The translations under genes and the position numbers were made by a program. Below the pieces are notes generated by a model. The model saw only the letters and a list, made by a program, of their open reading frames with translations, made no database searches and was not told the origin of the DNA. This document shows positions 3,612 through 58,402 of a stretch of DNA of 62,191 bases, in pieces (within the stretch, counting starts at the first letter, position 1; every line of letters starts with the position of its first letter). This DNA is from Pigmentiphaga humi (GTDB lineage: Bacteria; Pseudomonadota; Gammaproteobacteria; Burkholderiales; Burkholderiaceae_B), in assembly GCF_900606115.1 (NCBI RefSeq), contig NZ_UWPJ01000004.1:1-62191 (forward strand). Reading direction: 5' to 3'.

Positions 3612-3634
3612 TTTCGTTTTTCTCAGAGGACTCC

Positions 3635-4636: not shown

Positions 4637-4639
4637 GCA

Positions 4640-5197: not shown

Positions 5198-5249
5198 CTA
5201 CCGTGCCGTGGCGCCTGAGGTAGCCGGCCCGCATTCGCAGCCCGGCTTC

Positions 5250-5282
5250 GCCAGTGGCACGGCCAAAGCCCGGGCCACTGGC
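5250..5282 (+). terminator. Inverted repeat after csy4, possible terminator
   Basis: A perfect 9-bp inverted repeat, GCCAGTGGC (5250-5258) and GCCACTGGC (5274-5282) with a 15-nt loop, lies between the converging csy4 and hydrolase genes. There is no T-tract, so intrinsic termination is uncertain. Confidence 0.35.
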
Positions 5283-5331
5283 TTCGCAGTGATAGCGGCT
5301 ATGGTCGCCAATCCTGAAGGAGACCTCCAGC

Positions 5332-8632: not shown

Positions 8633-8673
8633 AGCGTCCTCATGTCTCCGTGGGCGGGATCCGGACCGTCCGG

Positions 8674-9675: not shown

Positions 9676-9724
9676 GAACTATCTCCTTCGACGATTTGAA
9701 AGAAATTGACGTGATCTGGGCCGG

Positions 9725-11320: not shown

Positions 11321-11433
11321 GTTGCGTAAGGCCGGTGGATGACGAGTGTGCATGCGGGGCGTGCATAAACGGCAGTTCGCCATGAGCATGGGCGCTGCTG
11401 TGTTATGCCGGTCTGGTCGCTATCATAGGTAGG

Positions 11434-11460
11434 AACATCCGTTGTTTAGTTGTGGATGTT
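11434..11460. promoter_or_regulatory. Inverted repeat, candidate LysR-type operator
   Basis: AACATCC (11434-11440) and GGATGTT (11454-11460) form a 7-bp inverted repeat with a 13-bp spacer. It lies in the divergent region between benzoylformate decarboxylase and its LysR gene, 24 bp before the LysR start. The inner ATC-N-GAT arrangement and position fit a LysR autoregulatory site. Confidence 0.5.
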
Positions 11461-11483
11461 TGATCAATTGATGAGCGATCCAC

Positions 11484-12398: not shown

Positions 12399-12408
12399 GC
12401 AACGCGCT

Positions 12409-13362: not shown

Positions 13363-13451
13363 CGATGCCTCCTGGGTGGGCGCGTCCGGCGACGCCGGGC
13401 GGCGGGAAGCGATGGATGCGTGCGCCGAAGGCGGCGCTGCGGCCGTGGATG

Positions 13452-13760
13452 CTAGCGGAGTATAAGCCAGCCGCTGACTGCGCAGGCCAGCGCGACGGCG
13501 CCCGAGATGCCGGCCATCCAGGCCGGCGGCGCCTGGACGACGCGGTCGAGGTGCAGAGACGAGCGGCGCCAGAAGGCGGCGGCGTACATCATCAGGGCGC
13601 AGGCCATGTCGAGCGCGCCGACGGCGAGCGCGGCGGCGTCGTGTTCCTGTATGCCGGCGCGCAGCATCAGCAGGGCGACGGCGGCCATGGAGAGCCCGGT
13701 GCGGTTCCAGGCCAGCGCGGTGCGCTGGGGCTGCAGTCCTGGATCCTGGTGGGGGATCAT
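13452..13760 (-). CDS. DUF202 (YidG-like) inner-membrane protein
   Basis: A 102-aa protein with three predicted membrane segments (about residues 23-42, 48-64 and 82-101). The family motif QPQRTALAWNRTGLSM is at residues 10-25. It overlaps the preceding DUF202 gene in ATGA (13757-13760), as yidH/yidG pairs do. Function of the family is not known to me. The ATG at 13760 is chosen from this overlap and the family N-terminus. Confidence 0.85.
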   Translation of the reverse strand: MIPHQDPGLQPQRTALAWNRTGLSMAAVALLMLRAGIQEHDAAALAVGALDMACALMMYAAAFWRRSSLHLDRVVQAPPAWMAGISGAVALACAVSGWLILR

Positions 13761-14098
13761 CGGACCAGTACGTAGAGACCGGCGACGACAGCGACGAGCA
13801 GGGTCACGCCGGCGGCGACGGGGATGAGCCGCGATCCCGGCAGGGGCCGCGCGTGCCGCATGGCGCGCTGGTTGACCCGCCATTGCAGGTAGGCTCCGCC
13901 GCAGAAGACCATGCCGGCCGCCGTCATGACGGTGCTGAGCGCGACGAGCGGCCAGTGGGGCTCGACGGTGTTGCCGAACTGGTGCAGCAGGATGGCGCCG
14001 GCCAGTACCGCGAGCGCCGTCCTGATCCAGGCGAGGAAGGTGCGTTCGTTGGCCAGGGTGAAGCGGTAGTCCGGCTCCTGGCCTTCGTCCTGTTGCAT
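13757..14098 (-). CDS. DUF202 (YidH-like) inner-membrane protein
   Basis: A 113-aa membrane protein with the signature YRFTLANERTFLAWIRTALAV-type opening (residues 11-30) and three hydrophobic segments. It is the first gene of a two-gene DUF202 operon, its stop overlapping the start of the second. The two proteins probably form a complex, which is inferred from their coupled arrangement. Confidence 0.87.
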   Translation of the reverse strand: MQQDEGQEPDYRFTLANERTFLAWIRTALAVLAGAILLHQFGNTVEPHWPLVALSTVMTAAGMVFCGGAYLQWRVNQRAMRHARPLPGSRLIPVAAGVTLLVAVVAGLYVLVR

Positions 14099-14151
14099 GA
14101 AGAAGATCTCCTGCGGATGCGCCTGCGCGAATCCGCCATTTTATGCCTCGG

Positions 14152-14194
14152 CGCATCGGCGCTGCCCGGCCGTGGGCGGTTTGGCCGATGCGCG
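14152..14194. terminator. Inverted repeat between sulfatase and DUF202 genes
   Basis: GCGCATCGGC (14152-14161) and GCCGATGCGC (14185-14194) form a perfect 10-bp stem with a 23-nt loop, 42 bp downstream of the sulfatase stop. There is no T-tract; it could end sulfatase transcription or stabilise the transcript end. Confidence 0.35.
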
Positions 14195-14235
14195 CCCGTC
14201 CGGCGCAGCGGACAGGCGCCTATCCGGATCCCGGG

Positions 14236-15807
14236 TCAGGCGGCGAATTTCGCGCGGGGGCTCTGGTCCACGGCGCGCATCAGTTCCTGCGCCAGATGCT
14301 CGGAGAGGCGGGCGCGCTGGCCGGCGTAGGCGGGATCGTCCCAGCGGTTGTGAGATTCGTGCGGATCGGCGCACAGGTCGTAGAGCTCGCCCCAGCCTTC
14401 GTCCTTGTAGACCGTGTAGCGGTGGTCTTCGGTGACCAGCGAGCGCACGAAGGCGGGCCGGGCGAAGCCCTGGCGGGTCTTGCTGTCCTGGTATTCGACC
14501 AGGACGGCGTCGCGCACGCCTTCGTCGCCGTGCAGCACCGGCAGCAGCGATTGGCCCTGGATGCCGAAGTAGGGCTTGAGGCCGGCGCGGTCCAGGATGG
14601 TGGGCGCGAGGTCTATGGTCGATGCCAGCGCGCCGTGGCTCGACGGGCCGCTCGCCCGCGGGTCGGCCCAGATGAACGGCACGCGGGTGATGGACTGGAG
14701 CGGAAGCGGGCCTTTGAGCATCATGCCGTAGTCGCCCAGGTAGTCGCCGTGGTCGGAGGTGAATACCACCACGGTGTCGTCGGCATGGCCGCTGGCCTGG
14801 AGGGCGGCCAGCACGTCGCCGATGGCGTCGTCGATCATGCTGATCATGCCGCAGGTCAAGGCCATGGCTTCGCGGATCTCGCGCTCGGAGGCGAAGAAGG
14901 AATCCTGCGGTCCCTGGCCGGCGCGGCGGCCGTTGCGCATCTGTTCGCGCGACCACAGGATGGGCGGCGGCGGGTTGCGGTGCGCTTCGAAGGGCAGGGG
15001 AACGGTGAAGTCGGCCGGGTCGTACATGTCCCAGTAGCGGCCGGGCGGGGTGAACGGGTGATGGGGATCGGGGAAGGAGACGAAGGCGAAGAAGGGCTGC
15101 TCGCTGCCGGCCGTCGATCCGAGGAAGTCCACCGCGCGGTCGCGGATGTAGCTGGTCGCGTACAGGGATTCGGGGATGGCGGTGCGGTAGGCCTGCGGAC
15201 AGACGTAGTCGTGCGGCAGCTGGTTGGCGCGGTCGCGCAGCGCGTCCGCGTCGGGCGTCTGGCCGCGCAGCCATTGCAGGTAGTGCGCGCCGGCCTGGTC
15301 GCCGTGCTGGGTGACGAAGTCGACTTCGTCGTAGCCGTAGAACGGCGTCTTGGGCTGGAAGCGCTGCGTGCCGGCGTAGTGGTGCGGCTGTTCCTGCGTG
15401 TAGTCGCCGCCGTCGTCCCGCCAGGCTTCCTGGATCAGGCCCAGCGCGGCCGGGTCGATGCGCGATTCGGCGGGCTGGCCGGTCATGGGCTGGATGTGGG
15501 CCTTGCCCAGGTGGGCGGTGCGGTAGCCGGCCGCGCGCAGCACGTCGACGAAGGTATGGGCGCGCCACGACAGGATGTTGCCGTTGTCGCGCAGGCCGTG
15601 GGCCGAGGGCATGCGGCCGGTCAGCATCGAAGCCCGGTTGGGCATGCACACGGGGCTGGCGACGTGGAAGCGGTCGAAGCGGCCGCCGCGCGCGGCCAGC
15701 GAGTCGATGTGCGGCGTGCGCAGCAGCGGGTGGCCGTAGCAGCCGAGATAGTCGGCGCGGTGCTGGTCGGTGACGATGACGAGGAAATTGACCTTGGGCA
15801 TGTTCAT
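14236..15807 (-). CDS. Type I sulfatase / phosphonate monoester hydrolase family protein
   Basis: A 523-aa alkaline-phosphatase-superfamily hydrolase. The formylglycine motif C-x-P-x-R is present as CMPNR with Cys54, followed by ASMLTGRMPSAHGLRDNG. Metal-binding residues are visible near the start (VTDQHRADYLGCYG, Asp14) and in TSDHGDYLGDYGMM near residue 345. No signal peptide is seen, so it should be cytoplasmic. Its ATG at 15807 overlaps the stop of the upstream Bug gene in ATGA; an alternative ATG at 15801 is two codons in. The motif has Asn instead of Ser after Pro, as in choline sulfatase-like and phosphonate hydrolase subgroups, so the exact ester (sulfate, phosphonate or phosphodiester) is open. 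Confidence 0.88.
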   Translation of the reverse strand: MNMPKVNFLVIVTDQHRADYLGCYGHPLLRTPHIDSLAARGGRFDRFHVASPVCMPNRASMLTGRMPSAHGLRDNGNILSWRAHTFVDVLRAAGYRTAHLGKAHIQPMTGQPAESRIDPAALGLIQEAWRDDGGDYTQEQPHHYAGTQRFQPKTPFYGYDEVDFVTQHGDQAGAHYLQWLRGQTPDADALRDRANQLPHDYVCPQAYRTAIPESLYATSYIRDRAVDFLGSTAGSEQPFFAFVSFPDPHHPFTPPGRYWDMYDPADFTVPLPFEAHRNPPPPILWSREQMRNGRRAGQGPQDSFFASEREIREAMALTCGMISMIDDAIGDVLAALQASGHADDTVVVFTSDHGDYLGDYGMMLKGPLPLQSITRVPFIWADPRASGPSSHGALASTIDLAPTILDRAGLKPYFGIQGQSLLPVLHGDEGVRDAVLVEYQDSKTRQGFARPAFVRSLVTEDHRYTVYKDEGWGELYDLCADPHESHNRWDDPAYAGQRARLSEHLAQELMRAVDQSPRAKFAA

Positions 15808-46783: not shown

Positions 46784-48217
46784 ATGGTGTTCTGGCTCGT
46801 TCTGCTCTACCTGCTGGCTTCCATCGGCATAGGCGTGCTCGCGGCGCGCCGCGTATCGAACGCTGCAGACTACGCGGTGGCCGGCCGTTCCTTGCCCTTG
46901 TACATCGTGATCGCCACCACATTCGCGACCTGGTTCGGCTCGGAAGCCGTGCTCGGGGTGTCGGCGGTGTTCGTGCGCGAGGGCCTCGGGGGCGTGGTCG
47001 AGGACCCCTTCGGCGCGTCGATGTGCCTGGTCCTGGTCGGCGTTTTCTTTGCCGCGCGCCTCTACAAGCACAACCTGCTGACGCTGGGCGATTATTACCG
47101 GGAGCGCTTCGGCACGCTGGTCGAGGTGCTGATGAGCGTGGCGATTGTGGTGTCCTACCTGGGCTGGGTGGCGGCGCAGGTCAAGGCCCTGGGCCTGGTG
47201 TTCCACATGCTCGACCCGGCGGTCTTCTCGCAGACCGGCGGCATGATCATCGGCATGCTGATCGTCATGACCTATACGCTGTTCGGCGGGATGTGGTCGG
47301 TGGCCCTGACCGATTTCTTCCAGATGCTGGTCATCGTCGCGGGGCTGCTCACCATTGCTTATTTCGCGACCGACCTGGCCGGAGGCGTGGGCGTCGTCGC
47401 GCACCAGGCAAGCAGCCACGACCTGCTCAATTTCCTGCCGCCGGCCACGACGCACGACATCCTGTTCTTCTTCGCGGCGCTGGTGACCATGATGCTGGGG
47501 TCCATCCCGCAGCAGGACGTCTACCAGCGCGTCATGTCGTCCAAGGACGTCAAGACCGCCCGCCGCGGCCCCGTCATCGGCGGGCTGCTGTACCTGCTGT
47601 TCGCCTGCATTCCGATGTACATAGGCGTGGCCGCGCTGGGCGTGATGCCCGATACCGTCGCCACCCTGATGCGGGAGGATCCGCAGAAGATCCTGCCTAC
47701 CTTCATCCTGGAGCGCATGCCCGTGGTGGCCCAGGTGTTCTTCTTCGGCGCGCTGCTGTCCGCCATCATGTCCACGGCCTCGGCCACGCTGCTGGCGCCG
47801 TCGACCACCTTCGCCGAAAACATCCTCCGGCATTTCGTGCCGGGCATGTCCGACAAGCGCTTCCTGCTGGCGATGCGCGTGTCGGTGGTGGGGTTCGGCC
47901 TTTGCGTGCTGGTGTTCGCGCTCAATACCTCGGACAGCATTTACGAAATGGTGGCCGGCGCCTATACGGTCACCCTGGTGGGGGCTTTCGTGCCTCTGCT
48001 GATGGGCTTGTACTGGCGGCGCGCCACCACCCAGGGCGCGCTGTTGTCGGCGGTGCTGGGCGTGGCGGCCTGGCTGCTCGTCCGCGCATTCGCCGCGGAA
48101 CAGTTTCCGCCGCAGTTGGCCGGGCTGTTCGCCGGTTTTGCCGGCATGTGGGCCGGCAGCCTTCTGCCGCAGGTGATCCGGGCCCGCAGCCGGCCCGCGC
48201 TGCATCCGGTACTCTAG
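46784..48217 (+). CDS. Sodium:solute symporter (SSS family)
   Basis: A 477-aa inner-membrane transporter with about thirteen membrane segments. SSS features are DYAVAGRSLPLYIVIATTFA near residue 30 and TLGDYYRERFG near residue 95, followed by the TYTLFGGMWSVALTDFFQM segment near residue 165, which are typical of proline/pantothenate/solute Na+ symporters. The substrate is not evident. The start at 46784 is chosen because it begins directly at the first helix; the ribosome-binding site is weak. It follows TauE/SafE by 92 bp. Confidence 0.88.
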   Translation: MVFWLVLLYLLASIGIGVLAARRVSNAADYAVAGRSLPLYIVIATTFATWFGSEAVLGVSAVFVREGLGGVVEDPFGASMCLVLVGVFFAARLYKHNLLTLGDYYRERFGTLVEVLMSVAIVVSYLGWVAAQVKALGLVFHMLDPAVFSQTGGMIIGMLIVMTYTLFGGMWSVALTDFFQMLVIVAGLLTIAYFATDLAGGVGVVAHQASSHDLLNFLPPATTHDILFFFAALVTMMLGSIPQQDVYQRVMSSKDVKTARRGPVIGGLLYLLFACIPMYIGVAALGVMPDTVATLMREDPQKILPTFILERMPVVAQVFFFGALLSAIMSTASATLLAPSTTFAENILRHFVPGMSDKRFLLAMRVSVVGFGLCVLVFALNTSDSIYEMVAGAYTVTLVGAFVPLLMGLYWRRATTQGALLSAVLGVAAWLLVRAFAAEQFPPQLAGLFAGFAGMWAGSLLPQVIRARSRPALHPVL

Positions 48218-48402
48218 GGCCTGCGCGAGGTTTTCTTCAGCGTTGACGGGCCCTGGCAGGCAGCCCAGGCCCGGCGGCCGCGCGCCGCCGGGAAACGCGC
48301 GCAGGTGTCATCGGGGAGTCAAGTTCGCCCGCTACCATGGTTCGCCGAACTTCCGGCGCTCTGGTACGCACCAGCCGCCGGCTCCGACGCGGAGGCTCCG
48401 CC

Positions 48403-49242
48403 ATGCTGTATCCGGAACTATTCAAATCCCTCGAATCCGTTCGGTGGGACATGGAGAAAGACGTTCCCTGGGAACGTTTCGACCCCGGCCTGTTGTCCGA
48501 CGAGCAGGCCAACACCATCAAGATGAACGCCATTACCGAGTGGTCCGCGCTCCCGGCCACCGAGATGTTCCTGCGCGACAACCGCGAAGACAGCGACTTC
48601 AGCGCTTTCATGTCTATCTGGTTCTTCGAAGAGCAGAAGCACTCCCTGGTGCTGCAGGAATACCTGCGGCGTTTCCGGCCCGAACTGCTGCCCACCGAGC
48701 AGGAACTGGACCACGTGCGCTTCGAGTTCGATCCTGCGCCGCCGCTCGAGACGCTCACGCTGCACTTCTGCGGCGAAATCCGGCTCAACCATTGGTACCG
48801 CCGGGCATCGCAGTGGCATACCGAACCGGTCATCCAGGCCATCTACCGGCTGATTTCGCAGGACGAGGCGCGTCATGCGGGCGCCTATCTGCGCTACATG
48901 AGGCGGGCGCTTACCGACCGGGGCAAGGAGCTCGCCGACCAGGCGCGCGCCGCCTTCGCCCGCATCGGCGTGCTGATGGCCTCGGCCAAGCGCACGTCGC
49001 AGGCGCTGCATCCGACCAACCTGCACGTCAACAAGAGCCTGTTTCCCAACGATACCGTGCAGTCGCGCCTGCCCGAGCCGGGGTGGCTGGACCGCTGGCT
49101 GGACCAGCAGATCCAGTTCGACAGGGAGTGGGAAAGCAAGGTCGCCGACCGCATCCTCCACAACATGTCGGTCCTGCTGGGCCGCAGTTTTGCCACGGTG
49201 CAGGATCTGAACCGCTACCGGAAGGAGCTGGCGGGATCCTGA
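48403..49242 (+). CDS. Ferritin-like diiron protein, acyl-ACP desaturase-like
   Basis: A 279-aa soluble protein with two carboxylate-histidine diiron motifs: EEQKH (E76, E77, H80) and DEARH near residue 155, plus isolated Glu residues in ATEMFLRDN (E54) and FCGEIRLNHW. This is the arrangement of acyl-ACP desaturase/AurF-type four-helix bundle oxygenases or desaturases. Length is shorter than plant desaturases. No lipid gene is adjacent, so the substrate is unknown. The ATG at 48403 follows GGAGG at 48391-48395. Confidence 0.8.
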   Translation: MLYPELFKSLESVRWDMEKDVPWERFDPGLLSDEQANTIKMNAITEWSALPATEMFLRDNREDSDFSAFMSIWFFEEQKHSLVLQEYLRRFRPELLPTEQELDHVRFEFDPAPPLETLTLHFCGEIRLNHWYRRASQWHTEPVIQAIYRLISQDEARHAGAYLRYMRRALTDRGKELADQARAAFARIGVLMASAKRTSQALHPTNLHVNKSLFPNDTVQSRLPEPGWLDRWLDQQIQFDREWESKVADRILHNMSVLLGRSFATVQDLNRYRKELAGS

Positions 49243-49507
49243 GGCCGCCCGGGCGTCCCCGTCTGCTTTCCTCCGCTCCCTGACGTCCCGATCGTCTGCG
49301 CGCCGCCCGCGCGGCGGCGTGGCGGTGCCGAAATCCGGTCCCGCCACGCCGTAGCGTTCCACCGTTTCGTTCCCCCCATCCCCCGGTTCACACCCGTTCT
49401 TGTCCGCCTGCCTGCCTGCATGCGGCGTCGGCCGGTCGCGTCTGCCGCCAGCCCGCCGCATGCCACGGCGCGGCCGCGCATGTTTTCGATTAAGGGTTAA
49501 TGCTTAG

Positions 49508-49535
49508 TCGACAGCGGCAGTTCACCGACTATAAT
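49508..49535 (+). promoter_or_regulatory. Sigma-70 promoter of the accessory operon
   Basis: TCGACA (49508-49513) and a perfect TATAAT (49530-49535) are 16 bp apart, giving transcription start near 49542. This is the best consensus promoter seen in the window and precedes the DUF35 gene by 45 bp. Confidence 0.7.
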
Positions 49536-49540
49536 TTTCA

Positions 49541-49572
49541 TTAAACAGAATTTATTTCCGTTAAATGGAATT
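49541..49572 (+). promoter_or_regulatory. Tandem direct repeat at the transcription start, candidate operator
   Basis: TTAAACAGAATT (49541-49552) and TTAAATGGAATT (49561-49572) agree at 10 of 12 bases and are 20 bp apart start to start, that is two DNA turns. They cover the expected transcription start and the ribosome-binding region, so a repressor bound there would block the operon. No regulator gene is adjacent. Confidence 0.5.
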
Positions 49573-49580
49573 ACGAAAAC

Positions 49581-50048
49581 ATGAGTGACGACATTGCCGA
49601 TTTCAGGTCGGGAGCCGCAGTGCCTCCCGGCGGTACGCCGAACAGCGATCTGGCGCGTCTGGACGACGCGCAGTTCCTGGTGCGCGACGGACAGACCATG
49701 CTCAAAGGGAGTGTGTCGCGGTCATCGGGGCGGGCAGCCTTCCCCGAGCGGGAAACCTGCCTGGTGACGGGGGCGCGCGACATGGAGCCGGCGACTTTCG
49801 GGCCGCGCGGTACGCTCTATTCGTTTTCGACAGTGCACGTATCGGCCAGCCGCCCGACGCCGTACACCATCGGCTATGTGGATCTGGACGACGACGTCCG
49901 GGTGCTGGCCGAGGTGCGCGCGCCGGCCGGGGAGCTGTCCTGCGACCTGCCCGTGGTGCTGGCCAACGACGGCCAGTCCTGGTTCGCGGTGCCGGAGGCG
50001 GCCCCGCGGGAAACGATGCCGCGCGGCGGCAGGGAGGGTATGCAATGA
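49581..50048 (+). CDS. DUF35/Zn-ribbon OB-fold protein with degenerate zinc ribbon
   Basis: A 155-aa acyl-CoA-associated OB-fold protein of the type that pairs with thiolases. The OB-fold is recognisable at about residues 72-120 (GPRGTLYSFSTVHVSASRPT and YTIGYVDLDDDVRVLAEV). The usual two C-x-x-C pairs are reduced to one cysteine (ETCLVTGARDMEP), so the ribbon probably binds no zinc. It overlaps the thiolase gene in ATGA (50045-50048), consistent with a complex with it. Confidence 0.75.
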   Translation: MSDDIADFRSGAAVPPGGTPNSDLARLDDAQFLVRDGQTMLKGSVSRSSGRAAFPERETCLVTGARDMEPATFGPRGTLYSFSTVHVSASRPTPYTIGYVDLDDDVRVLAEVRAPAGELSCDLPVVLANDGQSWFAVPEAAPRETMPRGGREGMQ

Positions 50049-51229
50049 GCGCCGCCGCGAATGGAACGGGGGGCAGCCCCGTCACGCAGGCCTGCATCGT
50101 CGGCGCCGCCATGATTCCCATGGGCAAGTACCGCGATTCCAGCTACGCCGGACTGGCCGTGCCGGCCATCCTGAATGCGCTGAGGTCGGCCGGCCTGGCT
50201 CCCGCCGACGTGCAGGCCGTCGTCTGCGGCCATGCGTTCGGCGGCATGCTCGCAGGCCAGCGCATCGTCAAGGAAATCGGCATCGGCACGGTGCCCGTGG
50301 TCAACGTGGACAACGCCTGCTCGGGCGGTGCGAGCGCATTGCATCTGGCGTGGAAGGACGTGACGGCAGGACGCTACGACGTGGTGCTGGTGGTCGGAGT
50401 GGACAAGCTCACCCAGTTCGGCGGCGGGACGCTGCCGCTGGTGGCCGAGGACCCGGAGGTGCGCGCGGGCATGGTCATGCCCGCCCTGTATGCCATGCGG
50501 GCGCAGCGCTACATGCACGAGCGCGGCGTGGGCGCGGACGTGCTGGCCGGGGTCAGCGTCAAGGCGCGCCGCCATGGGGCCCGCAATCCTTACGCGCAGT
50601 TCCGCAGCGAAGTGTCGGTCCAGGAAGTCCTGCAGTCGCGGCCGATCACCGATCCGCTGACCTTGCTGCAGTGCTGCCCGACCGGTGACGGCGCTGCCGC
50701 CGTGCTGATGGTGTCCGAACGCGTGCGCAAGCGGCTGGGGTTGCCCGCGATCCGCATCGCCGCCTCGGTGCTGCACTCGGGACAGGTCACCGCGGGCTTC
50801 CGCGATATGCTGCGGCCCGAGATTTCCTATCACTCCGCCAGCGACGCCTATGAGGCGGCGGGCTTCGGACCGCAGGACCTCGACGTAGTGGAACTCCACG
50901 ACGCCTTCACGATCGCCGAACTGATCTACTACGAGGCGCTGGGATTGTGCGAAGCGGGCGCTTCGGCCGATTTCCTCGCGGCGGGGCGGTCGACCTATGG
51001 CGGGCAGGTGGTGGTCAACCCCAGCGGAGGCCTGTTGGCCAAGGGGCATCCGGTGGGCGCGAGCGGGGTGGCCCAGGCGGTGGAAATGTTCTGGCAACTG
51101 ACCGGCGCGGCCGGCGCGCGGCAAGTGGAGGGCGCCCGGCTGGGCTTGAGCCACGTGACCGGGGGCGGCATCGCGGGCCTGGACCACGGCGCCTGCACCG
51201 TGCACCTGTACGAGGCGATACGGCCATGA
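50045..51229 (+). CDS. Thiolase-family acyltransferase (SCP2-thiolase type)
   Basis: A 394-aa condensing-fold enzyme. Cys92 in VDNACSGGASALHLA is the nucleophile, HDAFTIAELIYYEAL near residue 285 and NPSGGLLAKGHPVGASGVAQ near residue 325 give the active-site His and the second Cys/His region. It fits the acyl-CoA thiolases that work with DUF35 partners in ring or side-chain degradation. The stop overlaps the CoA-transferase start in ATGA (51226-51229). The acyl substrate is unknown. Confidence 0.88.
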   Translation: MSAAANGTGGSPVTQACIVGAAMIPMGKYRDSSYAGLAVPAILNALRSAGLAPADVQAVVCGHAFGGMLAGQRIVKEIGIGTVPVVNVDNACSGGASALHLAWKDVTAGRYDVVLVVGVDKLTQFGGGTLPLVAEDPEVRAGMVMPALYAMRAQRYMHERGVGADVLAGVSVKARRHGARNPYAQFRSEVSVQEVLQSRPITDPLTLLQCCPTGDGAAAVLMVSERVRKRLGLPAIRIAASVLHSGQVTAGFRDMLRPEISYHSASDAYEAAGFGPQDLDVVELHDAFTIAELIYYEALGLCEAGASADFLAAGRSTYGGQVVVNPSGGLLAKGHPVGASGVAQAVEMFWQLTGAAGARQVEGARLGLSHVTGGGIAGLDHGACTVHLYEAIRP

Positions 51230-52464
51230 CGGGCACCGACGCACGCGCGTCCGGCACGGCGCCGCCGCTGGCGGGCTACCGCATCCTGGACATGACCACC
51301 TTTCTGTCCGGTCCTTTCTGCACGCAGATCCTGGCCGACCTGGGTGCCGAGGTGGTCAAGCTGGAGGCGCCGGAAGGGGACTCCAGCCGCGCCATTCCGC
51401 CGCATTTCGTGGGTGCCGAGAGTGCCTATTACCTGGGCATCAACCGCAGCAAGCGCAGCATCGCGGTCGATCTCAAGAGTCCGGCCGGCCTGGACCTGGT
51501 CAGGCGGCTGATCGGCCAGGCCGACGTGGTGGTGGAGAATTTCCGCCCTGGCGTGCTGGCCCGGATCGGCCTGGACGTGGCCGCGCTGCGGGCCGCCAGC
51601 CCGGGCCTGATCTGGGCGTCGATCAGCGGTTTCGGACAGAGCGGCCCGTGGCGCGACCTGCCCGCCTACGACATGATCGTGCAGGCGCTGTCCGGCGTGA
51701 TGAGCCTGACCGGCCAGCCGGGCCAGCCGGCGGTCAGGCTGGGCATCCCGGCCGGCGATACGGTGGCGGGCATGTATGCGGCGATTGCGATCAATGCCGC
51801 CTTGGCGGACCGGCAGCGCAGCGGCCTGGGGAGAGTGATCGACGTGGCCATGCTCGACTGCCAGTTGGCGATGCTGGCCTACCAGAGCACGTATTCGCTG
51901 GTGGCGGGCGTGACGCCGGAGCCGCAGGGGGCGCGCCACGATTCCATCCCTACCTATCGCTCGTTCGTGGGGCGCGACGGGCGCGAACTGGTCGTGACCG
52001 CCAATACCGAGCGCATGTGGCGCGGCTTGTGCGAAGCGCTGGGGCTGGACGAACTGCCCGGCGATGCGCGCTTTGCCAGCGCGGCCGCGCGGCTGGAGCA
52101 CCGCGGGGCGCTGTGGCCGCTGCTCGAGCGCGCGTTCGCCACGCGCGATGCGCAGGCATGGATAGAGCCGCTGAGGGCGCGCGGCGTCCCCGTGGCGTTG
52201 ATCAAGACCGTGCCCGAGGCGCTTGCCGATGCCCGCCAGGGAGAGCGGGAGATGATCCTGCACCTGGAGGGAGGCGGGCACGCCATCGACGTGGTGGGGA
52301 ATCCGATCAAGTACGCCGGCAGCCGCCAGCAGGCGGCCGGTTATCCGCCCGCATTGGGCGAGCATGCGGCCCAGGTGCTGGCGGACTGGCTGGGCATGGA
52401 CGGCACACAGGTCGCCGCGCTGGGCGATGCCCTGGTCCGCCCCGCGCCGGAGGCCGGATCGTGA
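51226..52464 (+). CDS. CaiB/BaiF family III CoA transferase
   Basis: A 412-aa CoA transferase. The N-terminus has GYRILDMTTFLSGPFCTQIL and LGAEVVKLEAPEGD, followed by NRSKRSIAVDLKSPAG and VVVENFRPGV. The catalytic aspartate is in LPAYDMIVQALSG near residue 145. It would move CoA to or from a carboxylic acid, probably activating the operon's substrate for the thiolase. It is coupled to its neighbours at both ends. The start at 51226 gives MTGTDARASG. Confidence 0.9.
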   Translation: MTGTDARASGTAPPLAGYRILDMTTFLSGPFCTQILADLGAEVVKLEAPEGDSSRAIPPHFVGAESAYYLGINRSKRSIAVDLKSPAGLDLVRRLIGQADVVVENFRPGVLARIGLDVAALRAASPGLIWASISGFGQSGPWRDLPAYDMIVQALSGVMSLTGQPGQPAVRLGIPAGDTVAGMYAAIAINAALADRQRSGLGRVIDVAMLDCQLAMLAYQSTYSLVAGVTPEPQGARHDSIPTYRSFVGRDGRELVVTANTERMWRGLCEALGLDELPGDARFASAAARLEHRGALWPLLERAFATRDAQAWIEPLRARGVPVALIKTVPEALADARQGEREMILHLEGGGHAIDVVGNPIKYAGSRQQAAGYPPALGEHAAQVLADWLGMDGTQVAALGDALVRPAPEAGS

Positions 52465-53297
52465 GCGGCGGCATGAATGCGCAGGATGCCGGCGCCGTGC
52501 CGCCGGACGACGCGCCTGCCGGCCTGGCCGGTTTGCCGACGCGCTGGCGCGCGGGGGGCACCGGCGCGCACGGTTCGGTGCTGATGCTGCATTCGCTCGG
52601 CCTGGACCGACTCGCATTCGATCCGCTGCGCGCGGTGCTGGACCGGGGATGGCGGGCGGCTTCGTTCGACCAGTACGGGCACGGCGCCGCGTCGATGCAC
52701 GTGCGCTTCACGCTGGACGATTGCGTGGATGCTGCCCGGGCAGCCATCGAGGCGCTGGGCCCGGGGCCCGTGCACCTGGTCGGCCATTCGATGGGCGGCG
52801 CGATCGCCGCTCTGGCCGCATCCCGCGCCGGTGCGCGCGTGGCCAGCCTGGCACTGATCGCGAGCCCTCCTGCGGGCGGCGCGGCCTACCGCGACCGCGG
52901 CGAGCAGGCGCGGCGGCAGGGCGTGGAAGCGCAGGTCGCCGGCACGATGGCGCGTTGGTTCGGCCCGGAGCCCGGACCGGCCGCCGCGGCCGGGATGGAT
53001 TACGCCCGGGCCGCGCTGCGATCCATGCAGGCCGAAGGGCTGGCCTGCAGCTGGGACGCGCTGGCGGCATTCCCTGGCTACGCGGGCTTGCGTGATGCGC
53101 TGCCCCGCGTGCTGTGCATGGCCGCCGCCGACGACCTTTCCACGCCGCCCGAAGCCATGGCGCGCATCGTCCGGGACTGTCGCCCCGGGGCGGCCGAGCT
53201 TCGGGAGCTCGCCGGCGGCGGCCATATGGCGCCGCTGGCCAGGCCGGCCGACGTTGCGGCGCTGCTGCAGGCCTTCTGGCGCCGGACTTCATCTTGA
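52461..53297 (+). CDS. Alpha/beta hydrolase, enol-lactonase-like
   Basis: A 278-aa cytoplasmic hydrolase with the nucleophile elbow GHSMGG near residue 110 and the oxyanion HSLGLDR near residue 45; the Asp (AADDLSTPPEA) and His (GGGHMAPLA) of the triad are at about residues 220 and 255. It is closest to 3-oxoadipate enol-lactonase-type enzymes. The GTG start at 52461 overlaps the CoA-transferase stop and follows GGAGG at 52449-52453 with 7-bp spacing; an ATG at 52473 has no such site. It may open a ring lactone in the operon's pathway, which is inference. Confidence 0.82.
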   Translation: MSGGMNAQDAGAVPPDDAPAGLAGLPTRWRAGGTGAHGSVLMLHSLGLDRLAFDPLRAVLDRGWRAASFDQYGHGAASMHVRFTLDDCVDAARAAIEALGPGPVHLVGHSMGGAIAALAASRAGARVASLALIASPPAGGAAYRDRGEQARRQGVEAQVAGTMARWFGPEPGPAAAAGMDYARAALRSMQAEGLACSWDALAAFPGYAGLRDALPRVLCMAAADDLSTPPEAMARIVRDCRPGAAELRELAGGGHMAPLARPADVAALLQAFWRRTSS

Positions 53298-53368
53298 AAT
53301 CGCTGTCATTCAGAGCCGGGCACCTGCGCGACGTACGCATTGCCCGGCAACAACCAAAGGAGATTCAC

Positions 53369-54343
53369 TTGAACACACGCATATTCGCTTCGGCGGCCCT
53401 GGCCGCGGCCTTTTTTTCGTGCGCGGCGCCCGCGGCGCATGCCGACGCTGCCTATCCCACCCGCGCGGTGCGCCTGATCGTGCCGTTCGCCCCGGGCGGC
53501 CCCATCGACCAGACCGCGCGCATCATGTCGCAGCGGCTGACCGAGCTGTGGGGCAAGCCGGTGGTCGTGGAGAACCGCACCGGCGCCAACGGCGTCATCG
53601 CCGCCGAGGCGGCCATGCAAGCCCCGGCCGACGGCTATACCCTGCTGTTCTCGGTGATCCACCACACCGTGCTGCCCAGCCTGCAGAAGCTTCCCTACGA
53701 TATCGAGAAAGACTTCCTGCCCGTTACGCTGGCGGCGGTCTATCCCATCATCCTGGTCGTGCGCCCGGACCTGCCGGTGCGCACGGTCCAGGAACTGACG
53801 AAGATGGCCAAGGCGCGCCCGGGCAAGCTCAGTTTCGGCCACTCCGGCTACGGCGGCGGCACCCACCTGGCGGGCGAGCTGTTCAAGATGCAGGCCGGGG
53901 TGGACCTGCTGGCCGTTCCCTACAAAGGCAGCGCGCCCGCGATGGCCGATCTGCTGGGCGGACATGTCGATCTGATGTTCAGCGACGCGCCCACCGCGCT
54001 ACCCCACATCCAGATGGGCAAGCTGCGTCAGCTCGGCATCTCCACGCCGGAGCGTTCGGCGCTGGCGCCCGAACTGCCGACGATTTCCGAGAGCGGCGTG
54101 CCGGGCTACGAGGCCTATTCGTGGGGAGGCATTTCGGTGCGCGCCGGGACGCCGCCTGCGGTCGTGGCGAAGATCAACGCCGACATCGTCAAGATGCTGA
54201 AAGACCCGGCGACCCAGGAGCAGATGCTCAAGATCGGCGCCGAGCCCAAGCCCCAGACGCCGCAAGAGTACGCTGCCTTCATCCGGACGGAAATCGAGAA
54301 GTGGGCCAAGGTGGTGAAGCAGGCCAACATTCGCATGGATTGA
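53369..54343 (+). CDS. Bug/TctC-family periplasmic substrate-binding protein
   Basis: A 324-aa secreted receptor starting with TTG at 53369 after a good AAGGAG site (53357-53362). The signal peptide is residues 1-26 (NTRIFASAALAAAFFSCA...HA), then YPTRAVRLIVPFAPGGPIDQ, VVENRTGANGVIAAE and the ligand loop LAVPYKGSAPAMADL. It lies between hydrolase and NicC-like monooxygenase in the same operon, and is the fourth Bug protein in the window. Its ligand is probably the operon's substrate. Confidence 0.92.
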   Translation: MNTRIFASAALAAAFFSCAAPAAHADAAYPTRAVRLIVPFAPGGPIDQTARIMSQRLTELWGKPVVVENRTGANGVIAAEAAMQAPADGYTLLFSVIHHTVLPSLQKLPYDIEKDFLPVTLAAVYPIILVVRPDLPVRTVQELTKMAKARPGKLSFGHSGYGGGTHLAGELFKMQAGVDLLAVPYKGSAPAMADLLGGHVDLMFSDAPTALPHIQMGKLRQLGISTPERSALAPELPTISESGVPGYEAYSWGGISVRAGTPPAVVAKINADIVKMLKDPATQEQMLKIGAEPKPQTPQEYAAFIRTEIEKWAKVVKQANIRMD

Positions 54344-54389
54344 CCCGCGCGCAGCCGGGCGGGCAGTCGAATCAAGGAGCAAGCACACA

Positions 54390-55532
54390 ATGAGTATCAA
54401 GACAGTCGCAATCATCGGCGCCGGCATCGGCGGCCTGACCGCCGCCGCATTGCTTCAGCGCAATGGCTTCCAGGTGCGGGTCTACGAGCAGGCCAAGCGC
54501 TTCGCGCGAATAGGCGCGGGCATCCAGCAGAGTTCCAATGCCGTGCGCGTGCTGCGCGCGCTGGGCCTGGAAGACGCCCTGCGCCAACTGGCGTTCCGTC
54601 CGCAGTCGTGGAATAACCGGGAGTGGGACACGGGAGCGGTCAAGTACGAGCTGCCCCTGGGGGATACCTTCGAGCAGCGCTATGGCGCGCCGTATCTGCT
54701 GATGCATCGGGGCGACCTGCACGCGGCGCTGTTCGGCGCGGTGGACCCGGACAGCGTCCAGCTCGACAAGACGCTGGAAGAGGTTTCGCAGGACGGCTCC
54801 GGCGTGGCCATGCGTTTTGCCGACGGCAGCAGCGCGCAGGCCGATGTGCTGATCGGCGCGGACGGCGTGCACTCGGTCGTGCGCGAAACCCTGCTGGGCC
54901 AGGAGGCGCCGCGCTTTACCGGCCGCGTCGCGTACCGCACCACTTTTCCCGCATCCCTGCTCGATGGCTACGCGATCGACGACTGCACGAAGTGGTGGGG
55001 GCCGGACCGCCACATCGTGATCTATTACGTCACGCCGCGCCGCGACGAGGTCTACTTCGTGACCAGCGTTCCCGAGCCGGAGTGGCGCACCGAGTCGTGG
55101 TCGGCCAAGGGCGACATGGACCAGCTCCGCGCCGCGTTCGAGGGCTTCCACCCGCAGGTCCGGCGCGTGCTGGAGGCCTGCCCCGAAGCCTACAAGTGGG
55201 CGCTGTACGAACGCGATCCGCTGCCGCGCTGGAGCGAGGGCCGCATCGCGCTGCTGGGCGACGCCTGCCATCCCATGGTGCCGTATATGGCGCAGGGCGC
55301 GGCGACGGCGATCGAGGACGCGGCGATGCTGTTGCGCTGCATGCAGGAAGGGGGCGGGGCAGAGACGGTGTTCACGCGCTATGAGGACAGCCGCAAGGCG
55401 AGGGCGTCGCAGATACAGTTGACCTCCCACCACAACAAGTGGATGAGTACCCGGACCGACCCGGACTGGGTCTACGGCTACGACGTCTGGAAGGAGCCGC
55501 TGGCGCCCCGGCGCGCGCACGCCGAGGCTTGA
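54390..55532 (+). CDS. NicC-like FAD-dependent aromatic monooxygenase
   Basis: A 380-aa group A flavin monooxygenase close to 6-hydroxynicotinate 3-monooxygenase. FAD motifs are GAGIGG (residues 10-15), ADVLIGADGVHS near residue 151 (DG), and LLGDACHPM (GD, residues 288-295). The NicC-like block CTKWWGPDRHIVIYY (199-213) keeps Cys199, His208 and Tyr212; the C-terminal DWVYGYD is also shared. Two residues reported as important in NicC (His47, His302) are replaced by Gln46 and Tyr299 here. So the enzyme probably hydroxylates a related but different aromatic acid. It is the last gene of the operon and converges with htrA. Confidence 0.85.
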   Translation: MSIKTVAIIGAGIGGLTAAALLQRNGFQVRVYEQAKRFARIGAGIQQSSNAVRVLRALGLEDALRQLAFRPQSWNNREWDTGAVKYELPLGDTFEQRYGAPYLLMHRGDLHAALFGAVDPDSVQLDKTLEEVSQDGSGVAMRFADGSSAQADVLIGADGVHSVVRETLLGQEAPRFTGRVAYRTTFPASLLDGYAIDDCTKWWGPDRHIVIYYVTPRRDEVYFVTSVPEPEWRTESWSAKGDMDQLRAAFEGFHPQVRRVLEACPEAYKWALYERDPLPRWSEGRIALLGDACHPMVPYMAQGAATAIEDAAMLLRCMQEGGGAETVFTRYEDSRKARASQIQLTSHHNKWMSTRTDPDWVYGYDVWKEPLAPRRAHAEA

Positions 55533-55546
55533 GCGGACCCGCGGAG

Positions 55547-56998
55547 TCAGCCTATCCGCACCGGCACGAAGAGCTTGGCATCCCCGCGCTGAACCAGCAG
55601 CGCGACGTTCTTGCCCGCCTTGTCCAGCAGCGAGCGGACCTGGCCCACGCTTTGCACCGGCACGCCGTTGAACGACAGCAGCACGTCGCCCGCTTCGACG
55701 CCCGCCTGTTGGGCCGGGCCGCCGACCTGCTCGATCAGCAGGCCGTCCTGGCTGCCCAGCGCCTGTTGCTCCTGCGGCGTGAGCTGGCGCAGCGCCAGGC
55801 CCAGCTTGCCGTGCGCGGCGCCCTGACCATCGGCGCGGGCCGAGGCTTCCGGCTTGGCGCCGCCCAGCGTGGCGACGATGTTGCGTTCGCTGCCGCCGCG
55901 CCAGACCGAGAGCTCGACCTGGTCGCCCGGCGAGGCGAGGCTGATCACCGCGGGCAGGTCGCCCGACGAGACCACGGGCTTGCCGTCGATCTTGCGAATG
56001 ACGTCGCCGGAGGCCAGGCCGGCCTTGTCGGCCGGGCTGCCTTTTTCGACGCTGGCGATCAGCGCGCCGCTGGGCGAGTCCAGCTTGAACGAGTCGGCCA
56101 GCGCCTGGTTGACGTCCTGGATGGTGACGCCCAGGCGCGCATGGCGCACTTCGCCGTGGGCCACGATCTGGTCCTTGATTTTGCCTGCCAGGTCGATGGG
56201 AATGGCGAACGACAGGCCCTGGTAGCCGCCGGTCTGGCTGTAGATCTGCGAGTTGATGCCGACCACCTCGCCGCGCGAATTGAACAGCGGTCCGCCCGAA
56301 TTGCCGGGGTTGACGGCCACGTCGGTCTGGATGAACGGCACCGAGCCGTCATTGGGCAGCGAGCGGCCCTTGGCGCTGACCACGCCGGCGGTGACGGTGT
56401 TCTCCAGGCCGTAGGGCGAGCCGATGGCCAGCACCCATTCGCCCACGCGCAGGTCGCCCGGATTGCCGAGCGCGACCACGGGCAGGTCCTTGGCGTCGAT
56501 CTTGATCACCGCGACGTCGGTCTGCGGGTCCGAGCCGAGCACCTTGGCCTGGAATTCGCGCCGGTCGGTCAGCTTGACCGTGACTTCCTTGGCGCCGTTG
56601 ACCACGTGCGCGTTGGTCAGGATGATGCCGTTCGGGCTGACGATGAAGCCCGAGCCCTGGCCGCGCATGGGCACGCTGCGGGCGCCGCCGCCCTGGCCGC
56701 CCGGGTAGCCGGGAAAGCCGTGGAAGAATTGCGCGAAGGGGTCTTCTTCCTCGGCCGACACCTTGGTGGTGCCGACCACGCTGATGTTGACCACGGCCGG
56801 GCCGTAGCGCTGGGTGATCTGCGAGAAATCGGGGGGCGTAACGGCACCGACCGGCGCGGCCTGCTGGGCCGGGGCGGCCGCGGCGACGGTTTCGGGCGCG
56901 GATGCCTGCTTGAAGGCGGTGGCGCCGGCGGCGCCGAAGACGCCTGCGGCAACCAGCGCCACGGCAAGATGCGAAGCGGAGAATCTGCGGGTGTTCAT
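55547..56998 (-). CDS. mucD: Periplasmic serine protease/chaperone of the DegP/MucD (HtrA) family
   Basis: A 483-aa secreted protease. A signal peptide (residues 1-28) precedes the chymotrypsin-like domain with triad His131 (TNAHVVNG), Asp161 (TDVAVIKID) and Ser234 (GNSGGPL). Two PDZ domains follow (about residues 280-370 and 390-475, with PADKAGLASGDVI and QQAGVEAGDVLLSF). It degrades or refolds misfolded envelope proteins. Start at 56998 gives MNTRRFSASH; an ATG ten codons upstream is less likely. The two-component genes upstream (kinase, regulator) read into it on the same strand. Confidence 0.93.
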   Translation of the reverse strand: MNTRRFSASHLAVALVAAGVFGAAGATAFKQASAPETVAAAAPAQQAAPVGAVTPPDFSQITQRYGPAVVNISVVGTTKVSAEEEDPFAQFFHGFPGYPGGQGGGARSVPMRGQGSGFIVSPNGIILTNAHVVNGAKEVTVKLTDRREFQAKVLGSDPQTDVAVIKIDAKDLPVVALGNPGDLRVGEWVLAIGSPYGLENTVTAGVVSAKGRSLPNDGSVPFIQTDVAVNPGNSGGPLFNSRGEVVGINSQIYSQTGGYQGLSFAIPIDLAGKIKDQIVAHGEVRHARLGVTIQDVNQALADSFKLDSPSGALIASVEKGSPADKAGLASGDVIRKIDGKPVVSSGDLPAVISLASPGDQVELSVWRGGSERNIVATLGGAKPEASARADGQGAAHGKLGLALRQLTPQEQQALGSQDGLLIEQVGGPAQQAGVEAGDVLLSFNGVPVQSVGQVRSLLDKAGKNVALLVQRGDAKLFVPVRIG

Positions 56999-57079
56999 GG
57001 TGGGCTCCTGCGCCATGTAATGAGACATGGCGTCATGGTGGAGCCGGATTCTTAAAGCACGCTTAAGCGGGGAAGAGCC

Positions 57080-58402
57080 CTAGGCTTTGCGCGGAGGAAA
57101 GCGGACCCGCACGCGCAGTCCGCCCAGCGGCGCGTCCAGCAATTCCACCGTGGCGCCGTGGCGCTGCGCGATGGCCTGGACGATGGCCAGCCCCAGTCCG
57201 CTGCCTTGCGCGCCGGCGCCCTGCGCGCGGTAGAAGCGGTCGAAGACGCGGGCGCGCTCGCCGGGCGGGATGCCCGGGCCGTCGTCGTCGATGTCGAGCA
57301 CGGCGCCGGCCGGGCTCTCGCCCAGGCGGATATCCACCCGGCCGGCGTCGGGGGCGTACTTGACCGCATTGTCCAGCACGTTGCGCACCAGCAGCACCAG
57401 CCCGTCGTGCCGGCCCTGCACGCGCGCGTGTTCCTCGCCTTCCATGCCGATGTCGATGCCGCGCGCCTGGGCCTGGGGCAGGACGTCGGCCAACGCGGCG
57501 CGGACCACGTCGGCCAGGTCTATCCACGACGTGCCGGATTCCGCGTCTTCCTGCCGCGCCAGCGACAGCAGCTGCTCGATCAGCCGCGTGGCGCGGTCCA
57601 TGCCTGCGGCCAGGCGCTCCATGGCGAGCTGGCGCGCGGGTTCGTCGCCCGCGCGCCGCAGCGATTGCAACTGCAGCTTGAGCGCCGCGAGCGGTGAGCG
57701 CAGCTCGTGGGCGGCATCGCCGACGAACTGCTTCTGCGCGGCGAAGGCGCGGCGCACGCGCGCCAGCAGCAGGTTCAGTTCGTGCACCAGCGGCTGTACC
57801 TCGTCGGGCAGGCCGGCTTCGCTCACGGGAGAGAGGTCGTCGGGCTGGCGCGCCGCCACCTGGCGGCGCGCGCGTTCGACCGGCAGCAGCGAGCGGCTCA
57901 CCACCCACCAGACCACCAGCATCAGCAGCGGCGCCATCGCGGCGATCGGCCAGATGGTGCGCAGCGCCAGCGTGCGCGCCATGCCGGTGCGCACGCGCAT
58001 GTCCTGCGCGACCTGGATGATCTGCAGCGGCGCCTGCATGGAATACATCCGGTAGGTCGTGCCCTCGGTTTCGACGTTCGAGAAACCCAGCACGATGCGG
58101 TCGGGCAGCACCAGCCGGGGCGTGGAGCGGAACAGGCGCACGCCGTCGGGCGTCCAGATCTGGATGATGAGGTCGCGGCTGGCGGGGTCGTCCAGCAGGC
58201 CGCCTTCCGGCCCGCCGCCCAGGAGCGGGTTGCCGCCGCTCAGCGAGATGGCGGTGCGCTGCAATTGGTAATCGAAGATCTCGTCGGTCTGGATCAGCGC
58301 GCCGCGGTAGGCGATGGCGCCCTGGATCAGCGCGGCCACGAAGATCGCCGCCGGCAGGAAGACGAGCAGGCGTCCGCGCAGCGAATGGGCGGCCGCTTTC
58401 AT
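57080..58402 (-). CDS. Sensor histidine kinase, TctE/QseC-like
   Basis: A 440-aa membrane sensor kinase. Two membrane helices are at about residues 12-30 (LVFLPAAIFVAALIQGAIA) and 155-178 (LRTIWPIAAMAPLLMLVVWWVVS), with a periplasmic sensor between. A HAMP-like stretch is followed by the phosphoaccepting His in DAAHELRSPLAAL near residue 235 and the ATP site (NVLDNAVKYAPDAG, DDGPGIPPG, GSGLGLAIVQ). The start overlaps the response-regulator stop in ATGA. The type resembles TctE of tricarboxylate sensing; the ligand is unknown. The downstream gene is mucD. Confidence 0.9.
   Translation of the reverse strand: MKAAAHSLRGRLLVFLPAAIFVAALIQGAIAYRGALIQTDEIFDYQLQRTAISLSGGNPLLGGGPEGGLLDDPASRDLIIQIWTPDGVRLFRSTPRLVLPDRIVLGFSNVETEGTTYRMYSMQAPLQIIQVAQDMRVRTGMARTLALRTIWPIAAMAPLLMLVVWWVVSRSLLPVERARRQVAARQPDDLSPVSEAGLPDEVQPLVHELNLLLARVRRAFAAQKQFVGDAAHELRSPLAALKLQLQSLRRAGDEPARQLAMERLAAGMDRATRLIEQLLSLARQEDAESGTSWIDLADVVRAALADVLPQAQARGIDIGMEGEEHARVQGRHDGLVLLVRNVLDNAVKYAPDAGRVDIRLGESPAGAVLDIDDDGPGIPPGERARVFDRFYRAQGAGAQGSGLGLAIVQAIAQRHGATVELLDAPLGGLRVRVRFPPRKA

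Follow-up and report, generated by a model that had tools for sequence, protein, structure and literature searches.

Organization of the locus

The contig NZ_UWPJ01000004.1 of Pigmentiphaga humi, of which a stretch of 62,191 nucleotides (hereafter: the window) was analysed, carries a set of six genes coding for a DUF35 protein, a thiolase, a coenzyme A (CoA) transferase, a hydrolase, a periplasmic receptor of the Bug type and a flavin monooxygenase similar to NicC (6-hydroxynicotinate 3-monooxygenase). The positions and family names of the six open reading frames (ORFs) had been proposed in a first-pass annotation made from the letters of the sequence; our ORF list contains all of them at these positions on the forward strand, and each family name is confirmed by Pfam (Table 1). 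The first four genes are joined, as had been claimed, by three 4-base overlaps of stop and start codons (ATGA, ATGA and GTGA), and the other two follow after gaps of 71 nt (Bug) and 46 nt (monooxygenase). A good ribosome-binding site lies in each gap, AAAGGAG upstream of the Bug gene, whose start was taken as the TTG at position 53369, and AAGGAG ahead of the monooxygenase gene. In a consensus scan of positions 47000-58000 two promoter-like sites were seen (0.6 expected), none of them inside either gap: TCGACA-16-TATAAT is the sole such site ahead of the operon, and the second, at 56598, lies past it. Terminator-like sites in the same scan were about as frequent as by chance (6 seen vs 5.1). 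The operon most likely ends at 55532, because a long ORF on the opposite strand downstream has its end at 55547. Calling genes by codon usage was rejected, as it picked the wrong strands in GC-rich loci, including the window; instead, genes were called from tblastn anchors, ORF lists and position-specific GC content. All scores of the six proteins against the listed NCBIfam models stay below the respective cut-offs, and these models therefore do not allow any of the genes to be named as a known enzyme.

Table 1. Genes and promoter elements of the operon (window coordinates)
Feature	Position	Strand	Support
Sigma-70-like promoter TCGACA-16-TATAAT	49508..49535	+	11/12 consensus matches
Putative IclR-type palindromic operator, overlapping forward and reverse boxes	49536..49571	.	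immediately follows the -10 hexamer
DUF35 (OB-fold) thiolase partner subunit without Cys4 zinc site	49581..50048	+	PF01796, 48.7 bits (OB_ChsH2_C)
SCP2-type thiolase, BbsB-like	50045..51229	+	Pfam Thiolase; BbsB family, 342 bits
Type III (CaiB/BaiF) CoA transferase	51226..52464	+	PF02515, 399.6 bits (CoA_transf_3)
Alpha/beta hydrolase, GTG start	52461..53297	+	Pfam Abhydrolase; closest NCBIfam models: PcaD group
Bug/TctC periplasmic binding protein	53369..54343	+	PF03401, 236.4 bits, over cut-off
NicC-like group A flavin monooxygenase, Gln47/Tyr302 type (NicC numbering)	54390..55532	+	FAD_binding_3

Upstream of the operon, and outside it, a ferritin-like ORF (48337-49242) gives weak matches to FA_desaturase_2 and AurF.

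Conservation and distribution of the gene set

All six genes, in the same order and on the same strand, are present in Variovorax sp. Sphag1AA (locus L078), a member of another bacterial family, with identities to the window proteins of 57% (DUF35), 79% (thiolase), 74% (CoA transferase), 47% (hydrolase), 59% (Bug) and 75% (monooxygenase). This synteny supports a single transcript for the whole set, and the earlier proposal of one operon is upheld, with the addition that it is conserved. Separate transcription of the Bug and monooxygenase genes, which the first-pass annotation had named as an outcome that would speak against it, is made less likely by their arrangement in L078, where (with the starts as chosen) there are 4-bp overlaps of the hydrolase gene with the CoA transferase gene and of the Bug gene with the hydrolase gene, and the monooxygenase gene follows 60 nt after Bug. 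Upstream of the Variovorax operon there are genes for an aldehyde dehydrogenase and a thiamine pyrophosphate (TPP)-dependent enzyme, with a 4-bp overlap, plus a divergent IclR gene.

A profile scan of genome contigs with the thiolase alignment resulted in 15 named loci from Proteobacteria and Actinobacteria. The DUF35, thiolase and CoA transferase genes (hereafter: the core) are found together in all 15, the CoA transferase of L074 being cut by the contig end; an IclR gene is placed between thiolase and CoA transferase in eight, and a relative of the window hydrolase follows the core in eight. Elsewhere in the genomes of 13 of these loci, seven besides Sphag1AA match the monooxygenase at E ≤ 1e-60, with at most 47% identity. 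Alcaligenaceae, Comamonadaceae, Azospirillaceae, a Rhodobacteraceae bacterium and Actinobacteria all possess the core, with different front ends. Since it recurs in several families with different front ends, the core probably finishes off a common β-keto-acid intermediate of several uncharacterized pathways.

At E ≤ 1e-90 the thiolase is present in 14 of 268 genomes of the window's family (nine of them at 74-100% identity, with the window counted); the 10 remaining genomes of the window's genus give no such match. In an even draw of 399 genomes from the order the only one with a match at E ≤ 1e-170 is the window itself. The spread is patchy and yet the identity is high, which suggests that the gene set has been transferred horizontally. 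A plasmid search with the thiolase gave 147 records, the best of which was 65% identical (Mycobacterium branderi) and the others less than 60%.

A shared operator and a putative IclR regulon

A search of the P. humi genome with the Bug and TPP-dependent proteins of Variovorax revealed a second locus on contig C9, comprising a TPP-dependent enzyme (63% identical to that of the Variovorax operon), and a Bug paralogue (65% identical to the window Bug), followed, on the opposite strand, by an IclR gene. The Bug proteins of the window and of C9 are the best two of 150 scored matches to the Variovorax Bug (60% each; the next one 46%). Downstream of the -10 box in the window and upstream of the TPP gene on C9, 33 bp can be aligned without gaps and with 4 mismatches, and the score of 46 compares with a maximum of 26 in 500 single-base shuffles. 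A pattern written from these two sites has two perfect matches in the 5.12 Mb genome (none for the reversed-pattern control), and allowing up to three mismatches adds the two reverse boxes that overlap these sites and two isolated matches. With a relaxed pattern and at most one mismatch there are four matches in the genome (control: none), all at the window or C9 promoters or in the gap between the C9 IclR gene and an Amidohydro_2 gene, and none in 10 Mb of simulated sequence.

The relaxed pattern with at most one mismatch also occurs in 11 of the 12 named proteobacterial loci, ahead of the cassette or of a cassette-associated gene, and the sequence of the twelfth, L076, starts only within the adjacent gene. 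Among distant plasmid loci, L088 has a perfect match ahead of its first gene, and L087 has one with one mismatch, apart from the thiolase genes. Weaker sites were seen in L068 (four, with two mismatches) and in L069 and L070 (one each, with three). Within three mismatches there is none in the actinobacterial loci L083-L085, none in the loci of monooxygenase paralogues L031, L032, L036, L039 and L093, and none in L066, L067, L071, L095, L098 and L099; single-base shuffles gave 10 matches within the same limit in 743,673 bases. In 13 whole genomes (ten with the cassette, the window's own and two of its genus without the cassette) 28 matches with at most one mismatch were counted vs 3 for the reversed pattern, and one of these genomes, G043, had none.

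The IclR protein of C9 is 72% and 65% identical to those of the Achromobacter loci L058 and L059 and 52% identical to that of the Alcaligenes-type locus L062, the 72% match being the IclR encoded inside the DUF35-thiolase-IclR-CoA transferase operon of Achromobacter veterisilvae. Its identity to the regulators encoded in L060, L061 and Variovorax L078 is only 35-36%. The genome of P. humi therefore holds both elements by which we recognize an IclR regulon, a palindromic operator shared between promoters and an orthologous IclR gene, and the window operon and C9 probably constitute one small regulon, in which the regulator is predicted to bind both sites. The Amidohydro_2 gene is a possible third member. 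An operator-like site is situated between this gene and the divergent IclR gene (L097, positions 4362-5513, on C9), and its product might act in the same pathway, as a lactonase or a decarboxylase. Searches among solved structures with the C9 amidohydrolase (limit 1e-6) and the TPP-dependent enzyme (limit 1e-30) gave no match. The first-pass annotation mentioned neither this operator nor the C9 locus, and it had also overlooked the loss of the zinc site in the DUF35 protein (see below).

The DUF35 subunit and its thiolase

The Cys4 zinc ribbon of the DUF35 subunit is incomplete in all 14 distinct proteobacterial cassettes, i.e. the window, the 12 named loci and L062 (rows repeating one contig were counted once, and L068 had no DUF35 hit). 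One cysteine remains at the zinc site in 12 of these cassettes and two remain in L073 and L079; in the window the motif is VSRSSG...FPERETCLVTGARDM. At least four cysteines are kept in all four actinobacterial DUF35 relatives (L083, L084, L085 and L087) and in five of six more distant DUF35-hit proteins, the exception, L070, having none. The homologues compared in an excerpt of PMC12329534, a paper from 2025, bind zinc by four cysteines, except for CtShy (Cys3His), and on sequence grounds the loss in these cassettes is a further departure from four-Cys zinc binding. The fold seems to be kept despite this loss, because BbsA of PDB entry 7pxp is the structure closest to the AlphaFold model (mean predicted local distance difference test score 83.7; 96-97 in blocks 31-80). 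The DUF35/thiolase pair is probably zinc-free.

The thiolase has its best solved match in BbsB of the same entry (E 4.7e-88) and keeps Cys92, His285 and His335 as the catalytic Cys, His and His. The residue two positions before the GGG motif is Val in the window thiolase and in BbsB, and Cys in L069-L071. A thiolase-fold aldolase of the Sal/Ltp2 type was thought unlikely, as the window enzyme exhibits HDAF vs the YDHF, YDCY or YDCF given in the excerpt of PMC12329534, and Cys92 is kept. BbsAB, the benzoylsuccinyl-CoA thiolase of the anaerobic toluene pathway, resembles the window pair in the adjacency of its DUF35 and SCP2-type thiolase genes, and it is the best solved match for both proteins, by sequence for the thiolase and by fold for the DUF35 model. 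Unlike BbsAB, the window proteins score only 342.3 of 750 bits (thiolase) and 50.6 of 250 bits (DUF35) required by the NCBIfam cut-offs, the DUF35 subunit has no Cys4 zinc site, and the pair shares its operon with a CoA transferase (type III) and an aerobic monooxygenase.

The CoA transferase, hydrolase and Bug receptor

Among the best curated family matches of the CoA transferase are two succinyl-CoA-dependent type III families, from which it is separated by low scores, namely the succinate-glutarate CoA-transferases (302 bits; cut-off 750) and the mesaconate family (248 bits; cut-off 700). Asp178 of the GD motif, which we take to be the catalytic Asp, is kept as in these families and is conserved across the clade.

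The best-scoring models of the hydrolase are of the PcaD type in the copies from the window, Variovorax and Mycobacterium, with 127.8 bits for NF051488 (cut-off 390) and 107.6 bits for TIGR02427 (cut-off 255.85) in the window. A fold search returned generic esterase neighbours, with the enol-lactonase 2xua only in the tenth place. The logic of hydrolysis, CoA transfer and thiolysis is that of the lower β-ketoadipate pathway (PcaD, PcaIJ, PcaF), to which the closeness of the hydrolase to PcaD models also corresponds; in contrast to that pathway, the CoA transferase is a single type III protein and not of the two-subunit PcaIJ type, the thiolase is a DUF35-partnered SCP2 type and not PcaF, and the hydrolase stays below the TIGR02427 cut-off. 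As for the Bug receptor, the P. humi genome contains at least 150 Bug/TctC matches over the cut-off (150 of 294 candidates were scored).

The monooxygenase

The best solved match of the monooxygenase is, by a wide margin, NicC (PDB 8uiq/5eow, E about 1e-118). The NicC residues His211, Tyr215, Cys202, Val227 and Thr228 are kept, and His47 is changed to Gln, Met213 to Val and His302 to Tyr. According to an excerpt of PMC9304392, His211 and Tyr215 bind 6-hydroxynicotinate (6-NA), His47 and Met213 are named active-site residues of NicC, and the fungal 6-NA monooxygenase HxnX has Gln and Val at the positions of His47 and Met213. In a residue table from which identical rows had been dropped, Gln47 with Tyr302 is common to the Variovorax enzyme and all 11 rows at 58-62% identity, and the His/His combination is found in 21 of 24 rows at 45-51% identity, the others being L023 (Gln/Phe), L033 and L034 (both Asn/Phe). 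A tree built from 19 of the 38 rows unites NicC (5eow) and four His/His rows in one clade (100/100 branch) and leaves the window enzyme outside, in the other clade, together with its paralogues, L023, L033 and L034; the window and Variovorax enzymes are sisters with a support of 92/98, just under the star of the tool.

According to this phylogeny, the monooxygenase is a member of a sister group of NicC. The name 'NicC-like', given to it earlier, is justified by His211 and Tyr215; it does not extend to the NicC clade itself or to positions 47, 213 and 302. The substrate may still resemble 6-hydroxynicotinate, because HxnX too carries Gln47, and for the same reason (PMC9304392, excerpt) Gln47 was dropped as a proof against a 6-hydroxynicotinate hydroxylase. 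Two other candidates were rejected: a ring-opening flavoprotein of the 2-methyl-3-hydroxypyridine-5-carboxylate (MHPC) oxygenase type, which scores about 105 bits vs 400 for NicC, and the indole-3-carboxylate monooxygenase of PMC6692525, which, according to an excerpt of that source, is nearest to enzymes other than NicC and was not used.

Genes of the Gln47 group adjoin Bug genes, and clusters with a TPP-dependent enzyme are L031, L032 and L035-L037 (in L036 NF006203 scores 651 bits, cut-off 456), with a CoA transferase also in L032 and L035-L037. These five paralogue clusters (L036, positions 8000-14500, and L031, L032, L035, L037) all comprise a Gln47-type monooxygenase, a Bug and a TPP-dependent enzyme; a CoA transferase was not seen in L031, and an aldehyde dehydrogenase is annotated in L036, with the same ORF group in L031 and L037. 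They represent another catabolic cluster of the window's genus without a known pathway. In a further genome (G757) from the genus of Variovorax sp. Sphag1AA, a Gln47-type gene lies directly before genes for a PcaC-like carboxymuconolactone decarboxylase (143.8 bits; cut-off 155.7) and a Bug protein (L093, positions 8763-11450).

The proposed pathway

In our view the operon is real, conserved and catabolic, and it probably belongs to a small regulon. We give about even chances to the specific proposal that it is an IclR-regulated operon for a carboxylated (hetero)aromatic or similar cyclic acid, whose degradation proceeds to CoA transfer to, and thiolysis of, a β-keto acid. It is based on gene content, synteny, the shared operator sequence, clade membership and conserved catalytic residues, from which we infer the binding of the regulator, each reaction, the reaction order, the substrate and the CoA donor. 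An IclR-family regulator would switch the operon, and the Bug protein would catch the acid, which the NicC-like flavoprotein would hydroxylate, probably ipso to the carboxylate and with the loss of CO2. The PcaD-like hydrolase would then cleave a ring-derived lactone, amide or β-diketone, and the type III CoA transferase would put CoA, probably from succinyl-CoA, on the resulting β-keto dicarboxylic acid. Finally, the DUF35/thiolase pair would split the β-ketoacyl-CoA into two acyl-CoAs, one of which could regenerate the CoA donor, as in the β-ketoadipate pathway. The C9 locus would contribute a second Bug and a TPP-dependent enzyme resembling a decarboxylase. The front end would thus comprise the decarboxylating hydroxylation and perhaps also TPP-dependent decarboxylation and aldehyde oxidation of an α-keto side chain. 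Uptake, hydroxylation, hydrolysis, CoA transfer and thiolysis, the order suggested by the first-pass annotation, remains the most economical one.

Several observations weigh against this proposal. There is no clear ring-opening enzyme in the window or on the stretch of C9 that was read, and no aldehyde dehydrogenase was found beside the C9 TPP gene. The hydrolase is under every cut-off for PcaD (3-oxoadipate enol-lactonase), and its generic fold makes a lactonase indistinguishable from an esterase. Both operator patterns were written after the sites had been seen, and matches there are partly by construction; eight of the 28 matches in the 13 genomes are near neither a cassette nor C9, and the cassette-less G179 accounts for two of these. 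The operator of L078 has one mismatch, and its IclR is only 35% identical to that of C9. In the trees of the thiolase and of the CoA transferase, the window and Sphag1AA are not resolved as sisters. The monooxygenase adjoins the core in only one of the 15 named loci (L078); in L084 a relative of 38% identity is 5.6 kb off the core, 11 loci show no relative in the available sequence, and the sequences of L074 and L076 break off before this could be decided. The Gln47-type enzyme is also rare outside, with matches at E ≤ 1e-140 in two of 101 genomes of the genus Variovorax. Because the core mostly occurs without the monooxygenase, the two halves of the operon may serve separate steps.

Ring opening and alternative explanations

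The earlier conclusion that the lack of a dioxygenase implies hydrolytic or CoA-dependent ring opening could not be established. Six hits to intradiol-dioxygenase domains in the P. humi genome exceed the Pfam cut-off, two of them adjacent on contig C25, and there are six matches to the NicX-like protein of locus L091, all of these hits and matches being on other contigs than the window. The label 'NicX-like' derives from the place of that gene beside NicC and molybdenum hydroxylase genes in L091, as no family model names it; its best own-genome match (77%) is at positions 9008-10039 of L095, on contig C24. Since both kinds of matches lie on other contigs, ring cleavage in trans is possible. 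On the other hand, a route free of any dioxygenase, in which the monooxygenase makes a hydrolysable ring that the hydrolase opens straight to a β-keto dicarboxylic acid, on which the CoA transferase and the zinc-free DUF35/thiolase pair would act, seems to us decidedly unlikely. It would involve decarboxylating hydroxylation beside a ring heteroatom (e.g. of a 2-furoic-, pyrrole- or pyrone-type acid) to an enol-lactone or lactam, and the PcaC-like decarboxylase directly behind a monooxygenase of the same group in L093 can be cited for it. If true, it would be a pathway of the β-ketoadipate type entered via a monooxygenase and not via an intradiol dioxygenase.

In an alternative that we find unlikely, the monooxygenase is another decarboxylating hydroxylase of 6-hydroxynicotinate or a close pyridine acid, a NicX-type dioxygenase opens the dihydroxypyridine in trans, and the CoA genes serve a by-product. 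The five conserved NicC residues, the Gln and Val shared with HxnX (PMC9304392, excerpt) and the six own-genome NicX-like matches argue for it. None of the five own NicC-like proteins with residues read (the window and L031-L034) is of the His47/His302 type, and two further ones, on contig C22, are encoded within about 4 kb of NicX-like matches. To our knowledge, nicotinate breakdown requires neither a CoA transferase nor a thiolase, and it is the His47/His302 gene of L091 (one cluster inspected) that adjoins NicX-like and molybdenum hydroxylase genes, whereas the Gln47/Tyr302 genes adjoin Bug genes and sometimes also genes for a CoA transferase, a TPP-dependent enzyme or a thiolase; moreover, the window's own contig has no NicX-like match.

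It is also rather improbable that two cassettes without a shared pathway have merely been joined, one for activation and thiolysis of a β-keto acid (DUF35, thiolase, CoA transferase and hydrolase) and the other a monooxygenase-Bug pair. Such pairs without a thiolase hit do exist at other loci of the window's genus, and the scarcity of the monooxygenase among the core loci, mentioned above, agrees with this explanation, but the identical six-gene order in another family, the 4-bp overlap of Bug with the hydrolase gene in Variovorax and the operator ahead of the whole set in both genomes argue for joint function. Finally, a pathway for an alicyclic or branched aliphatic acid, with the flavoprotein acting on a non-aromatic cyclic enol or ketone, would fit the pairing of the core elsewhere with short-chain dehydrogenases/reductases (SDRs) and a type II dehydroquinase (DHQase II)-like protein, MmgE/PrpD, cytochrome P450 and SnoaL, or an FAD-dependent oxidoreductase and enoyl-CoA hydratase, but is very unlikely given the wide margin by which NicC is the best solved match and the conservation of NicC substrate-binding residues.

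Novelty and related loci

In our literature searches, which covered open-access papers and were judged from their listings, we found no description of a pathway with this gene set, in agreement with the first-pass annotation. The kinds of enzymes are known; what is new is their combination, the altered DUF35 subunit and the shared operator. The operator provides a direct handle on the proposed catabolic operon, as the ligand of the IclR protein would lead to the substrate, and solving one pathway would help to annotate the others that share the core. DUF35 subunits without the zinc site offer a test of the purpose of the zinc finger in the partners of thiolases and aldolases. In the Alcaligenes-type locus L062 (positions 3616-4149) and in L072, L079-L082 and L086, the DUF35-thiolase-IclR-CoA transferase core is followed by a DHQase II-like protein (105 bits in L062; cut-off 170), two SDRs and a TRAP transporter, and these loci probably represent a second undescribed pathway.

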